The translations under genes were made by a program, and so were the position numbers. DNA of 32,117 nucleotides, from the NCBI GenBank assembly GCA_020832465.1, contig JAFIER010000166.1, positions 1-32,117 of the forward strand. The letters run 5' to 3'. The DNA is from Bernardetiaceae bacterium (GTDB taxonomy: Bacteria > Bacteroidota > Bacteroidia > Cytophagales > Bernardetiaceae). A model generated the notes under the pieces. The model did no database searches, was not told where the DNA came from, and worked only from the letters and a program-made list of their open reading frames with translations. Shown piece after piece: positions 3,221 to 32,117 of this stretch; the first letter of the stretch is position 1; each line of letters starts with the position of its first letter.

Positions 3221-3358
3221 AAGCATTACTTGTTATACACTACCATCTTTTTGTTTACTTCGCTTAGCCCTGAGGTATTGATACTAAAAAGTATGACTTT
3301 TGCTTGTTATTTCCATATTATCTATTTTTTAGTTTACAACATCAAACTCACCAAAAGT

Positions 3359-3970
3359 ATGTATAGTTTTGTATTGATTTTTATTCTGACTTCGCTTTTT
3401 TTTGTCAGCGGTATGGCACATGCGCAAAATAAATCTGAGGGTACGATTCGCATAGATAAAATTCCGACCTCAGTAGAGGAGTTTATTCAAATGCGCGACA
3501 AAATTGCTACTACGCCAGCGGGCGGTGCAGCCACCATGATTGTTGCTCTTTTGATTTACGCAGAAAAACCCGAGTTAGGCTTACCTTGCTTAACTATTGC
3601 CATTGATAGAAACCAACTTAGCACAGGCAGTGGCGGCTATAAAGGATTCGTACCAAGTGCGGGGGATTTAAGAACAATTAAAGACCAGCTTGCACGTGCG
3701 CCCTACTTACCCAAATCGTATTTTGCAGGTACTTCTAACCAAAATGGATACGCACTACCCCAAAAATTAGAAATGCACTTCTCGAGCAATGCCTACAGTG
3801 GCAACGCTGCTGATGGTGCGATCAAAGTCTTTGTGCCATCTTCAGGCGCAGATAGTCCACGCCCTATCAATATGCAAGTAAACAACAGAGGACTTTGGAA
3901 AGCGAGTAGTTGGAGTTCGTTGCTCGTTGGCATTCGCAAACCCATAGTAGAAAATGATGATGACTTTTAG
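3359..3970 (+). CDS. Secreted DUF6935-like hypothetical protein
   Basis: I chose the ATG at 3359 because it begins a clean signal peptide (MYSFVLIFILTSLFFVSG, cleavage probable after AHA). The frame is open further upstream, to 3230, but that region contains a palindromic repeat. The mature protein begins with a conserved-looking block (TSVEEFIQMRDKIATTPAGG, then AATMIVALLIY) that resembles the DUF6935 family as I remember it. The C-terminus is acidic (ENDDDF). No catalytic motif is visible and the role is unknown. The product should be periplasmic or surface-located. Family assignment is from memory, so moderate confidence; the gene itself is well supported by the signal peptide and open frame. 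Confidence 0.65.
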   Translation: MYSFVLIFILTSLFFVSGMAHAQNKSEGTIRIDKIPTSVEEFIQMRDKIATTPAGGAATMIVALLIYAEKPELGLPCLTIAIDRNQLSTGSGGYKGFVPSAGDLRTIKDQLARAPYLPKSYFAGTSNQNGYALPQKLEMHFSSNAYSGNAADGAIKVFVPSSGADSPRPINMQVNNRGLWKASSWSSLLVGIRKPIVENDDDF

Positions 3971-26775: not shown

Positions 26776-27036
26776 TTACTTCTCTTCTTTATCCAAACCG
26801 TCTTTTATCTCTTGTACCTTTTCCTCGCTCAAGCCTGTGAGTTCGGCAGTCATTCCTATAGAAAAACCTTTTGCTAAACAAGCTAAGGCAAACTTAATTT
26901 GAGCTTCTTCTAGCCCAACTCCTTTTCCTTGCAAATAAACCTCATCTTGTTCGATGTCATATCCAATAGTTCCCCTATTTCCTAATTCGTTTTGAATAAT
27001 GTTTGGTAATTGATTTCGCAGACGAGCTAAAATTAA
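26776..27036 (-). pseudogene. Duplicated 3' fragment of an Rpn-family nuclease gene
   Basis: The minus strand reads LILARLRNQLPNIIQNEL and continues for 87 codons to a stop at 26776, parallel to the last third of the intact gene to its right. The first part (26943-27035) differs from 27293-27385 at only three positions at a fixed 350-bp offset; the rest has diverged and lacks the GIEEGKAA repeats, having a short GKGVGLEEAQ instead. There is no start and no nuclease core, so it is a remnant. The intact gene's stop codon lies inside this repeat. Confidence 0.8.
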
Positions 27037-27962
27037 AGGCTACCTGTCTCATTTTTATCCATATCGTCTTTGAGTTTTTGCACCTGTTCTTTGCTCAAGC
27101 CTGTAAGCTCAACGGTCATTTCAAGAGAGAGTCCTTTTAACAAGCAAGAAATAGCAAAATCGAGTTGAGCCTTTTCTATTCCCTTTTCTATTCCCTTTTC
27201 TATACCCTCTTCTATTCCAGCGGCTTTTCCCTCTTCTATTCCAGCGGCTTTCCCCTCTTCTATTCCAGCTCCTTTCCCCTTCAAGTACAATTCATCTTGT
27301 TCGATGTCATATCCAATAGTTCCCATATTTCCTAATTCGTTTTGAATGATGTTTGGTAATTGATTTCGCAGACGAGCCAAAATTAAGAGCTGTCTGACAT
27401 ACTTATTTAACGCTGTTTTATCGCTTTTTAGTTGCGACAAACGTGTTAAAATTTTGCGAACCACAGCCTCACGAGTCTCTTCGCCAAAATCCGCCAGCAC
27501 TGCCATAATGACTTCTTCTGCGTGTTCGGATTCCAAAAACTCTTCGTAAGAATAGTCCCGAAAGGATTTGAGTACGAAGCCCTTAAATATTTCAGAGGGT
27601 TCAAGTGTTGAGCGCATGTTACTCGGCTTTTCGCCTAAATAATACACTACCTGATACACGGGCATTTGATATTTTTTTTGTAAAATAGCATGATACTCTT
27701 GCATACGAAATATCATTTTATCTTCGTCATGCGCCTGAAATTCTAATTGCAGAATAAATTCTTCATTCTCTGTAGTCGTAATTTGCAGCAGAAAATCAGA
27801 CTCTCGCTCCAGCGTAGTTTGCAATTTGTCTTTGATAAAGCGATGCGCTTTTATTTCAAATCCAAACTGACGTTTTGAAAGTTTTAGTACATAAGCTACG
27901 ATATTTTCTTTCAAGATTTTATCGTAAGCATTTTGTTCATTTTTAGGTTTTTCTTTTGCCAT
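27033..27962 (-). CDS. Rpn-family recombination-promoting nuclease/putative transposase
   Basis: The 309-residue protein matches the PD-(D/E)XK (PDDEXK_2) Rpn family: ERESDFLLQI with Asp56 and LQLEFQAHDE with Glu74 and Gln76 form the expected active-site set, followed by RMQEYHAILQKKY, the Y-VVYYLG block and a helical C-terminal region. In E. coli, Rpn proteins nick DNA and promote RecA-independent recombination (established for RpnA-type proteins). Residues 231-264 are a run of GIEEGKAA and GIEKGIEK repeats, ahead of a C-terminal LTGLSKEQVQKLKDD motif. It begins about 20 bp from an RHS core scar and its last codons overlap a partial duplicate of itself. Start ATG 27962. Confidence 0.87.
   Translation of the reverse strand: MAKEKPKNEQNAYDKILKENIVAYVLKLSKRQFGFEIKAHRFIKDKLQTTLERESDFLLQITTTENEEFILQLEFQAHDEDKMIFRMQEYHAILQKKYQMPVYQVVYYLGEKPSNMRSTLEPSEIFKGFVLKSFRDYSYEEFLESEHAEEVIMAVLADFGEETREAVVRKILTRLSQLKSDKTALNKYVRQLLILARLRNQLPNIIQNELGNMGTIGYDIEQDELYLKGKGAGIEEGKAAGIEEGKAAGIEEGIEKGIEKGIEKAQLDFAISCLLKGLSLEMTVELTGLSKEQVQKLKDDMDKNETGSL
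27171..27274 (-). repeat. Micro-repeat inside the Rpn gene (GIEEGKAA/GIEK)
   Basis: Two units of GIEEGKAA are followed by GIEEGIEKGIEKGIEK. The DNA repeats in step (tandem TCTATTCC-type units on the plus strand), so the length can change by slippage. Rpn proteins commonly carry such variable glycine-glutamate-lysine runs. The truncated duplicate to the left has none. Confidence 0.75.
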
Positions 27963-27982
27963 AAAAAGGTATATTAGTGTAC

Positions 27983-28048
27983 AGCATCACGAAGATAATG
28001 CGTTTTTTTCGTAATTGCAACTATTTCGCCCTCGATTTCTTCATTTTT
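27983..28048 (-). pseudogene. 66-bp RHS core scar, identical to part of the RHS gene
   Basis: By eye these 66 bp are identical to 31679-31744. On the minus strand they encode NEEIEGEIVAITKKTHYLRD, the core segment just upstream of the tip junction in the RHS gene. There is no remaining frame. The Rpn ATG lies about 20 bp beyond, so the scar marks a site where RHS sequence once continued. Confidence 0.85.
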
Positions 28049-28049
28049 G

Positions 28050-28140
28050 TTGTCTGAATCAGGATTAACAAGATTAAAGGATTAGCAGGATGGCAAAAAT
28101 CAAGTAAATCTCAAAATCCTGAAAATCTTGATTCTGACAA
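28050..28140. repeat. 91-bp imperfect inverted-repeat element
   Basis: TTGTCTGAATCAGGATT (28050-28066) and AATCTTGATTCTGACAA (28124-28140) are inverted with two mismatches. Internal AAAGGATT-, AAATCCTG-like repeats fit a known style of Bacteroidota intergenic repeat. It abuts the RHS scar by one base. There is no coding capacity; it may be a non-autonomous mobile element. Confidence 0.6.
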
Positions 28141-28190
28141 GATAGCGTCATATTGGTAGCTGATTTCGACATCAAAAAGTGCCTCTTCTC

Positions 28191-28793
28191 TTACTCTTCT
28201 TTTACACTCCTGCGGCACAGAACTGCTTTACCGAGCCTCGTAGGCTTGTAATACTTCTCTTCCTTAGCCTTTAAGGTGTCAGGAACATAAAACATACAGT
28301 TAAGTTCTATTTCTTTAGGAGTGCCTGATATAAATATTGAATTTCCTCTGCGAGGTGGTAGTCTGTAATAGGAAGTGTCATTATCAGGCTTATACCGTAT
28401 TGACCCTATTTTACCCTTGCAAAATAGACTGCGTAAACTATCTCCTTTCTGATTTGATTCTGCATACATTTCATTTGAAAAAGCGAGCTTGGAGTCTCCT
28501 AATAGTTTTACTTTTTTTAAAAAAATCAAGTAATTTACGTATCTATATCCTTGAGCTATAAAAAAATCTTGTTCAAAAGGATTATCGTTGTTATAAATTT
28601 CTTTAAATGCTTTTATTGCAGTTGTATCTAAGTAGCAAAGCTCATAATCGGCTATCCAAGTTCCCGTTTTTATGGCTTCTTCCCGATTTGAAGGAAATCT
28701 TCTAACTGTATGATTCATATAATAAATCAATGCATCCCACATAAATACAAGTAGGCAAATCCCTAAAAATATTTTTAATGTTTTTTTATTCAT
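28191..28793 (-). CDS. Candidate immunity protein for the orphan RHS tip, single TM anchor
   Basis: I start at ATG 28793 (MNKKTLKIFLGICLLVFMW), which overlaps the tip's last codons by 8 bp; ATG 28811 would add six residues. The product (200 residues) has a basic start, one TM helix (about 5-22) and a large, probably extracytoplasmic, domain with no recognised family (GTWIADYELCYLDTT, YRLPPRRGNSIFISG). Overlap with the upstream toxin-like gene is the usual arrangement of toxin-immunity pairs; placement outside the inner membrane suits a toxin acting in the envelope. Function is inferred from context alone. Confidence 0.65.
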   Translation of the reverse strand: MNKKTLKIFLGICLLVFMWDALIYYMNHTVRRFPSNREEAIKTGTWIADYELCYLDTTAIKAFKEIYNNDNPFEQDFFIAQGYRYVNYLIFLKKVKLLGDSKLAFSNEMYAESNQKGDSLRSLFCKGKIGSIRYKPDNDTSYYRLPPRRGNSIFISGTPKEIELNCMFYVPDTLKAKEEKYYKPTRLGKAVLCRRSVKEE

Positions 28794-30024
28794 CTTTACG
28801 GTAGTATTCATATGTTTGAGGAAATTTATGTTTAGAATAGGTACTTTGAGGCGAGTAAGTAGTGTGGGCAGTTCTGAAATAGTTAGTGGTCAAACAACTT
28901 TCCATATGCATAAACTTTACGATAGGGGCATCTTCAAAACCAGGCTTTACGAGAGCAAATATAGAGAATTTTAAAGCTACGGTAGATATTTTAGCAAATT
29001 CATTGATAACGTTGCCAGGGGCAAACGCACCCTTAAAACCGTGAGGTTTTGTCATATAACCTAAGTTGTTTCCCTTAGCATCTGTCCCTGCTGCTAAAGC
29101 CTCATCTACAACGTTGCTACAGTCTTTATTTCCCAAGGTATAAGGTAATGTACAAGCTCCCTTTGCAGCTTCTTTCATTTTTTCATCTGCTTCATGATTT
29201 GTAGTAATTCTAAATGCTTTTGTGTATCTTTTAATATAAGTGGCATCTATATGATCAGATGACATTGCATAATCCTGTAAAAGAATTTGTTTTTTCTCAT
29301 GAGTTTTTTGAAGTTCCGCTGGTAATGCTTCTGTATTTCTATTGTCTTGTGCGTGATAATTACCTTCCTTCAAAACATAATTATGGGGACTATCAAAAAA
29401 ATCTTCCAAAGATGAAAATTTGACCACTGAAAATACGGGTATTCCTGAACCTTCTAAATAAGTTCCACCTCCTGTAACACCTCCTTTTAAAAAAGCATCT
29501 TTTGATATATATGTCCAACCTTTGTCATCATTACCTATCAATACTGCCATGTGCCCAGCCCCACCAGCACCATTGGGATCTAAGAGCACTACAATATCTC
29601 TCCCATCAGGATCAACCGCCCAAAGTGGCATGTTTGCCACAAAAGCATAAGGCGAATAAGCAGGATATTTCGCTTCCAACGGATCTACACTCCAAAAAAT
29701 AGGAATATCTTTATCGTCTCCGATACCGTAGAGACGTGCGCCGAAGTTTTGTGCGCCTGTCTCGAGGTCGGTTTCTTTGCCATTGAAGGTGTAGCGTGCC
29801 GACGAACTGCTACGGCGACCTATCATCAAAGCACCATAACTCAAATAATCTTGACTTGATAAAATTCTATTTTCGTAAGTTGCTGCCACCGCATTGCCTG
29901 TTTTGTTGTCAGAAATGGTAACGAGTACATTGCCTAAATGGTTTGATAAATCATAGGATTTTTTGCCCAAAGTGCGGCGTTTTTTGTCGCCACCCGATTG
30001 ACTGCCTAAGCGTGCGAGATACAA
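28786..30024 (-). CDS. Orphan RHS tip: RHS core end plus permuted papain/NlpC-type C-terminal domain
   Basis: Residues 1-140 are the last part of an RHS core (KKRRTLGKKSYDLSNHLGNVL, RYTFNGKETDLETG, GARLYG, DPLEAKYPAYSPYAFV, DPDGRD) without the body, translocation modules or a normal start: the frame opens from TTG 30024 just after a stop. Residues 145-412 hold GGAGHMAVLIGNDDKGWTYI (His158) and, far downstream, LGNKDCSNVVDEAL (Cys302), the His-before-Cys order of permuted NlpC/P60 papain-like enzymes. So it may be a peptidase/amidase-like toxin. It probably acts as a spare tip that must recombine onto a full RHS gene to be delivered; direct expression is doubtful. An overlapping immunity candidate follows. 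Confidence 0.75.
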   Translation of the reverse strand: MYLARLGSQSGGDKKRRTLGKKSYDLSNHLGNVLVTISDNKTGNAVAATYENRILSSQDYLSYGALMIGRRSSSSARYTFNGKETDLETGAQNFGARLYGIGDDKDIPIFWSVDPLEAKYPAYSPYAFVANMPLWAVDPDGRDIVVLLDPNGAGGAGHMAVLIGNDDKGWTYISKDAFLKGGVTGGGTYLEGSGIPVFSVVKFSSLEDFFDSPHNYVLKEGNYHAQDNRNTEALPAELQKTHEKKQILLQDYAMSSDHIDATYIKRYTKAFRITTNHEADEKMKEAAKGACTLPYTLGNKDCSNVVDEALAAGTDAKGNNLGYMTKPHGFKGAFAPGNVINEFAKISTVALKFSIFALVKPGFEDAPIVKFMHMESCLTTNYFRTAHTTYSPQSTYSKHKFPQTYEYYRKDE

Positions 30025-30072
30025 CCAAATTTATAATGTACAAGAATTATTTTCTTTTTCTTTTCCGTTTTT

Positions 30073-30546
30073 TTATGATGTTAGAAATGTTAAATGTATC
30101 ATACAAAAAAAAGGAGCTAAGAAAAGCATTACTATTAAAATCATTATTGTATAAAACGCATGATCATTAATCTCTTTCACCCCTTTTATGATAAAATAAT
30201 TACATTCTGGGTAATACGTAATATTAACACTGCTTCCTTTGCTTAATTGGTTGAAATTTTTATGATAACTATCCCCCAAACCTTTTTCTAAACGACCTTT
30301 CATTTTTATTGTGTCTAATTCAAATTCAAATATGACTGCCATTGTCTTTTTTTCTTTATCAATCCACAATACCTCACCTGCTAACTCGTAAGAAGCATTA
30401 TTTATTGTACAAAAAACATATTGTCTATTGTATAAAAATAAAGTAAACAACAGTAAAATTATTATAAAATAACCATAACTGCTTCTTAGCAAATGTACAA
30501 ATCGACTATTTACGCTTTTCTTCTCCGATATGTTTGTCTCCTTCAT
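30073..30546 (-). CDS. Candidate immunity protein for the RHS tip, two TM helices (DUF3592-like)
   Basis: I start at ATG 30546 (MKETNISEKKSVNSRF), inside the 3' end of the RHS gene with a 41-bp overlap; an earlier in-frame start at 30591 would add 15 residues. The product (157 residues) has a TM helix (about 25-45), a beta-rich domain (YELAGEVLWIDKEKKTMAVIFEF, VNITYYPE) and a second TM (about 130-150). The layout and the YYPE-then-IKGVKEI pattern recall DUF3592 membrane proteins. Its overlap with the toxin gene supports an immunity role against a membrane or envelope toxin. Family resemblance is by eye. Confidence 0.65.
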   Translation of the reverse strand: MKETNISEKKSVNSRFVHLLRSSYGYFIIILLLFTLFLYNRQYVFCTINNASYELAGEVLWIDKEKKTMAVIFEFELDTIKMKGRLEKGLGDSYHKNFNQLSKGSSVNITYYPECNYFIIKGVKEINDHAFYTIMILIVMLFLAPFFCMIHLTFLTS

Positions 30547-32117
30547 TATACAAAATTTGGTTAATAATTTCAATCGAAACTTCTGTAGCACTCGTGCGTA
30601 TGCTTATATCAATAGTAGAAATATTTTTGTCCGCACTCTCTTTAACAACTCCCCATAACTCTTTATATAGTTTTCGGCTTTGAGCCTTACTATAACCATA
30701 AGCTTCTGCAACACTTTTAGAATATTTACGCACCTCCTTTTTTATATCTCTTTCAGCAGCCTTAAAAGCTTTTATAGCTTTTTTACGTGCATGCTTATTT
30801 AGTTCTCCTTTGGCTTTGCTACCAACAACCCCACCTATCATAGAAGAAGGAATACCTATAACAGCATCTGTTACTACTTCAAGAGTTGAGAATTTTGTCC
30901 TATCTTCAAATAAAAATTCCCAAGCCTGTCCAACTATTGACTGTGCACCACCTGCTGCAAATCCACTAGCACCATTAACAACAATAGCGCTTGTGCCAGT
31001 AAGTCCCACACCAGCAGTTAATCCACCAGCGACAATCCAAGCACCAGAACCAATTATAGTGCCAGCAGTAGCACCCGTTAGAGCTCCTTTTCCAGCACCT
31101 TTTAGCTTTTTTTTGAAGTTGCCTTTTGTAGTAAAAAAGCCAATTACTCCTCCTGCTACACCACCTATTAAAGCTCCTGCACCTGCGCTTACTAAAAGTG
31201 GAACGTCCCCAGCTGGGTCAGCAAAACCAATCGGATTATTGCGATTGACAGCATATGAATTTTCCCATTCCACAAAAACAGGATCCACATTCCATCGCCT
31301 CGCCACCCTGCTATCATACTGCCAAAACTCCGCCGTATAAGTATCGGGCGCAATTTCGGGCGTTTTTTCTTGGGTATTGAATCCAAAACGATACACATCA
31401 AGAGCCACCATCCTCTCCCCCATAGCCATACCAAAAGCATAATAATCGGTTTCCGATACGGCACGGGTAATATAACTATTCGTAGATACCGAACCTTCTT
31501 TGTTGTCCGAGACGACGACCAAGACATTGCCCAAATGATTGGATAACTCAAAGAACTTTTTGCCCAAAGTACGGCGTTTTTTTGGGTTTTCACCACGAAC
31601 CACTCCCAAGCGACTACTCCCATAAACCGTCCACTCCGACAAACTTTCGTCTTCGTAAGTCGCCAGTACATTGCCAGTAGCATCACGAAGATAATGCGTT
31701 TTTTTCGTAATTGCAACTATTTCGCCCTCGATTTCTTCATTTTTTATGATTTTTTTGAGGGAGCGATTGCCCAAAGCGTCGTATTGATAGAATATCTGTG
31801 CTTCGGATTTGGTTACGGAAGCGATTTTGCCGTAGGTGTTCCACTCGATTTCGAGGACATCATCTTCGGGATTGCTCGTGAGATTGCCGATAGCATCGTA
31901 GCTGTAGCTCTGATTGCCAGCTACGCCTGTGGGGTCGCCGCTCAGGTCGTGGACACGGTGGAGGCGATTGTTGAGCAGCGTATTATAATCGTACTGCAAA
32001 TCATCAATCAAATCTTCCAATTTATTTCTACGACTTAGACTTAGAATATTACCATTCGCATCGTAGCTATATCGGCTCGCATAACTCGTCGCTGAGGATT
32101 GACTATGGGCTGTTTTG
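30506..32117 (-). CDS. RHS-repeat protein with C-terminal toxin-like tip, 5' end outside window
   Basis: The frame is open to the window edge: the bases past 32020 still encode YD-repeat sequence (SRYSYDANGNILSLSRRNKLE), so the 5' part lies beyond 32117. Visible RHS/YD units include QSYSYDAIGNL, YQYDALGNRSLKK and the core HYLRDATGNVLATYED, TVYGSSRLG, LSNHLGNVLVVVSDN and RRWNVDPVFVEWENSYAVNRNNPIGFADPAGD. After DPAGD comes a Gly/Ala-rich, TM-like region (about 120 residues), then a basic, mostly helical end (HARKKAIKAFKAAERDIKKE to EEKRK) with no recognised enzyme motif. This is the toxin tip delivered by an RHS shell. It overlaps the downstream immunity candidate. Confidence 0.87.
   Translation of the reverse strand, partial: KTAHSQSSATSYASRYSYDANGNILSLSRRNKLEDLIDDLQYDYNTLLNNRLHRVHDLSGDPTGVAGNQSYSYDAIGNLTSNPEDDVLEIEWNTYGKIASVTKSEAQIFYQYDALGNRSLKKIIKNEEIEGEIVAITKKTHYLRDATGNVLATYEDESLSEWTVYGSSRLGVVRGENPKKRRTLGKKFFELSNHLGNVLVVVSDNKEGSVSTNSYITRAVSETDYYAFGMAMGERMVALDVYRFGFNTQEKTPEIAPDTYTAEFWQYDSRVARRWNVDPVFVEWENSYAVNRNNPIGFADPAGDVPLLVSAGAGALIGGVAGGVIGFFTTKGNFKKKLKGAGKGALTGATAGTIIGSGAWIVAGGLTAGVGLTGTSAIVVNGASGFAAGGAQSIVGQAWEFLFEDRTKFSTLEVVTDAVIGIPSSMIGGVVGSKAKGELNKHARKKAIKAFKAAERDIKKEVRKYSKSVAEAYGYSKAQSRKLYKELWGVVKESADKNISTIDISIRTSATEVSIEIINQILYNEGDKHIGEEKRK

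Follow-up and report, generated by a model that had tools for sequence, protein, structure and literature searches.

The window, i.e., the whole stretch of 32,117 nucleotides analysed, comes from a genome of 4.6 Mb in 289 contigs and is referred to as contig C161 where it is compared with others. The locus under study occupies positions 26,776 to 32,117, and all of its features are on the minus strand. Read in that orientation, it begins with the 3' part of an RHS gene (core and tip according to the translation, 32117-30506; Rhs_assc_core match at 31208-31444) that runs off the contig. A small ORF follows, and then an orphan RHS tip with partial core (P0003, 30024-28786; Rhs_assc_core E=6.9e-10). 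As expected of a tip cassette, P0003 begins in mid-core, has no N-terminal part, and passes from the end of the core into a variable tip. The small ORF behind it (28811-28191) is a probable immunity gene judging by position and translation; a family search with it gave zero matches. Next come a MITE-like dispersed element of 91 bp with imperfect terminal inverted repeats (28140-28050), a 66-bp RHS core scar encoding KNEEIEGEIVAITKKTHYLRDA (28048-27983), an intact gene of an Rpn-type, probable PD-(D/E)XK nuclease (P0001, 27962-27033, 309 aa, ATG at 27962), and a degenerate second copy of the 3' third of Rpn (27046-26776). Elsewhere in the window, a palindromic repeat (AGAAATAACATTTCT...AGAAATGTTATTTCT) has nine intergenic copies between 3100 and 26639, and these are probably terminator-like dispersed repeats.

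The Rpn protein matched TIGR01784 with 40.5 bits (E=2.7e-10, profile positions 41-273) and did not reach the curated cut-off of 52.1; therefore, the gene is named Rpn-type, as a divergent relative and not a confirmed member of the family. Pfam and PADLOC models did not recognize the protein, no sequence relative was found in PDB, the plasmid collection had no match to the Rpn unit, and the scan of GTDB contigs with the window protein as query gave no match. Residues D56 and E74-F-Q76, which would correspond to the nuclease motif of known Rpn proteins (YhgA-like, TIGR01784, COG5464), are invariant across 10 homologs. The best PDB matches of its AF2 model (pLDDT 75) in Foldseek were PD-(D/E)XK restriction and repair nucleases, all non-significant (E>=0.063). 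The hallmarks described for Rpn toxin-antitoxin genes are four-residue repeats in a C-terminal helix behind an internal Met and an extra C-terminal copy downstream, as in rpnS of E. coli (PMC10327210). Both have counterparts here. Met213 (27324-27326), a possible internal start codon for a C-terminal antitoxin of RpnS type, is invariant in the 10 aligned homologs and is followed in the C-terminal tail by GIEE/GKAA/GIEK repeats, coded by 12-bp tandem units (27176-27283, repeat family D2). The degenerate copy at 26776-27046 represents an RpnS-like tail (88% over 141 nt in repeat D3; 72% and 59% in tblastn), in which the internal Met codon is now AGG. The sister genus likewise has the 3' third of Rpn repeated directly behind the gene (L108, 689-1069; L109, 4973-5209). 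The variable ends and missing terminal inverted repeats also resemble known rpn genes, reported without inverted repeats or target duplications (PMC10327210). Unlike them, the window gene belongs to a divergent subfamily and is fixed within the RHS core.

The sequence-only reading had described the scar as a perfect RHS core copy about 20 bp from the Rpn start. This holds, as 27983-28048 is 100% identical to 31679-31744 in the live RHS core, its partner or source copy, with sharp ends on both sides, and exactly 20 bp separate it from the Rpn ATG. Its placement immediately before the tip junction was imprecise; when the core is intact, about 470 bp (about 155 aa) separate this segment from the junction downstream of it. 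An in-frame fusion of Rpn as an RHS tip is ruled out, as the core frame hits a stop before the Rpn ATG. The scar is found 5' of Rpn in C161, C26, and C31, is shortened in C150, retains only the final 21 bp in C213, and is degraded in C44; because the order of scar and then Rpn is repeated in this way, its position beside Rpn is not due to chance. Near its outer edge, the C161 scar carries the RHS1-type AAAAATGAAGAAATCGAGG, as does the neighbouring live RHS core, and the other copies carry CACAGAAATCGATGG. From these letters, a recent exchange between the C161 scar and the live core 3.6 kb away looks to be the simplest reading. In C44, the degraded scar is joined straight to the C-terminal part of Rpn only (L074, about 3264-3500), a joint that resembles a free-standing RpnS-like ORF retained without the nuclease domain.

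The outer edge of the scar is simply the end of the 91-bp element and not an independent breakpoint. This element has 64 matches in the genome, and each of the closest eight lies either in RHS core or beside Rpn. In C216, C19, and C162, it splits the RHS core at one and the same point (after NLTSNPED, before EIDGEIV), and therefore the scar derived from an RHS copy in which the element was present beforehand.

The RHS piece may also have a role in Rpn expression. A promoter-like TTG-N20-TATCTTCG of the Bacteroidota -33/-7 type was located within the scar (27990-28020) by pattern scan, and Rpn genes of the sister genus have TTTG-N19-TATCTTCA at a like place in their native promoter region. The scan gave 10 matches in the window versus 6.0 in shuffles, and the pattern is only suggestive, because about six such matches occur by chance in a sequence of this size. 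The non-coding flank of the Rpn copies is conserved more than the adjoining coding sequence, which is suggestive of a promoter role and would equally fit repeated exchange with RHS cores. Taking the weak pattern match as the basis, the RHS piece in front of each Rpn probably supplies or completes its promoter.

Across this genome, all close Rpn paralogs (10/10, the window gene and nine other places) are joined to RHS core pieces, a count that overstates the number of events because copies within one genome are not independent. None of the nine distant Rpn paralogs has an RHS piece within 1.5 kb. Many contigs break inside Rpn, a matter of assembly and repeats, and both flanks of one Rpn copy are visible only in C161, C26, and C213. 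C26 reads ...KTYYLRDA in the core, then Rpn, and then LSNHLGNVLV... in the core again (restart at LSNHLGNVLVTLTDN); with core on both flanks, this is an RHS core split by Rpn. On the 3' side of Rpn, the core resumes at one common junction, NVLVTISDNK, in C247, C270, and C59, while C213 and C113 have another RHS core there (LELIAEQTGYVRASLSS...HYYPFGMSLVG), and in C161 this side is free of RHS core. In all, the copies have at least four different 3' flanks. The junctions thus coincide with the RHS core, as the sequence-only reading had asked to be checked. Neither inverted repeats nor target duplications were evident at Rpn, and without common ends or terminal inverted repeats, Rpn is ruled out as an insertion sequence or autonomous transposon. 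The H-repeat (H-rpt) of E. coli rhs loci is likewise an ORF that accompanies rhs; it is transposase-like and of DDE type, unlike Rpn, a probable PD-(D/E)XK nuclease. With RHS orphan-tip arrays (C-terminal displacement in rhs and cdi loci), the locus shares silent tips, partial core, a small gene after the tip, and core repeats as homology; unlike in those arrays, the core pieces of the cassettes enclose an Rpn gene together with a MITE-like element.

The sister genus (G008) has about 17 Rpn relatives with up to 70% identity, and their native upstream region contains no RHS; an orphan tip follows one of these genes at a distance of about 0.6 kb. Elsewhere in the family, the genomes have Rpn and RHS apart. 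Among the 59 genomes of the order surveyed, one further linked case was present in the matches listed, that of the distant relative Thermoflexibacter ruber DSM 9560; the other genomes with coordinates for both families revealed no Rpn-RHS linkage among the matches listed. In T. ruber, Rpn of another subfamily, which does pass TIGR01784 (101.7 bits), stands directly before the RHS core. This joint occurs at least six times (C37, C68, C111, C79, C90, and C27), always at one common point of the core (...FGLGMKG). Ten of 13 places of the close Rpn clade in this species are in RHS arrays, as against none of the seven places of its other Rpn subfamilies. Nearly all orphan tips of T. ruber (L120-L129) start at one core point (YYPFGLGMKG) and are preceded by many kinds of sequence, Rpn among them; this common start suggests a preferred breakpoint. 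T. ruber appears to have captured its Rpn independently. The expectation that Rpn near RHS would be a rule in Bacteroidota failed, as RHS was detected with a home-made profile within 3 kb at only one of 80 further GTDB Rpn loci, that of T. ruber itself, and a general linkage is thereby ruled out. Since the linkage occurs in two lineages and was not seen at the other loci of this set, the association is recurrent but patchy. The proposal that Rpn occupies the place of a tip is thus retained for a position inside the RHS core beside tip cassettes, in this genome and in the close clade of T. ruber, and is dropped as a general rule. A literature search on Rpn and Rhs found no paper linking them, and Rpn fixed inside RHS core is a setting not found in the literature searched.

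Among RHS-embedded Rpn copies, pairwise dN/dS was 0.08-0.13 for this genome and 0.03-0.10 for T. ruber, with dS of 0.27-0.91, and the intact Rpn genes are therefore under strong purifying selection. At least three copies are intact; C150 has a stop at codon 4 (L070, 3758) and C44 is truncated. Recombination tests (PHI-type) within Rpn were mixed, with p=0.001 for the C-termini of this genome, 0.32 for the sister genus, and 0.05, 0.30, and 0.05 for the three sets from T. ruber.

We consider it rather probable that an Rpn gene was captured into silent RHS tip cassettes, was multiplied together with the cassettes by ordinary recombination, and is still functional. According to this capture reading, a gene for a PD-(D/E)XK nuclease whose own C-terminus forms an antitoxin-like part would have entered the core of a silent tip cassette that already bore the MITE-like element, at a point between '...KTHYLRDA' and '...NHLGNVLV'. 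Cassettes with Rpn would then have been multiplied and rearranged by homologous recombination among the repeated core, MITE, and Rpn sequences, with selection retaining functional Rpn genes and the RHS piece in front supplying or completing the promoter of each. T. ruber would represent a separate capture of a different Rpn subfamily. The analysis shows the junctions and their recurrence, the purifying selection, and the exchange-like letters of the C161 scar; from these we infer the order of events and the promoter role, and also that Rpn here may work like its E. coli counterparts, as a nuclease of the toxin-antitoxin or anti-phage kind.

Zhong and co-workers argued that Rpn proteins act as toxin-antitoxin anti-phage nucleases and not as transposases, and that rpn genes tend to occur in groups with defence genes and to confer phage protection (PMC10327210). 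The locus could accordingly be seen as a defence and competition island, in which Rpn, as an anti-phage toxin-antitoxin gene, persists by toxin cassettes because lateral acquisition and selection act on both. The purifying selection on Rpn agrees with such co-selection, which leaves unexplained why the joints lie exactly inside RHS core coding sequence and gives no account of only one affected Rpn clade per genome; we regard it as unlikely. Still more doubtful is a role of Rpn as the driver of tip shuffling, by nicks or cuts near core repeats that would promote RecA-independent exchange between silent tips and live RHS genes, an arrangement that would have evolved at least twice. One report states that E. 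coli Rpn proteins increase RecA-independent recombination (PMC5350276), and different Rpn subfamilies came to lie in the core beside tips on at least two occasions; the seemingly recent exchange of the window scar with the live core and the recombination signal in the Rpn C-termini of this genome would also fit. On the other hand, most genomes that have both keep Rpn and RHS arrays separate, recombination between repeats requires no special enzyme, and the case made against a transposase role speaks against it too. Neutral debris, i.e., a dead RHS copy in which a single Rpn landed, to be passively copied within a repeat-rich graveyard, would suit the broken copies and the degenerate tail in the window and is very improbable, as dN/dS of 0.03-0.13 at large dS with at least three intact copies rules out that the intact ones have long been neutral.

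With a functional nuclease gene kept in the tip cassettes of two unrelated lineages, nature would offer a system for telling an Rpn role in tip swapping from hitchhiking of a defence gene.
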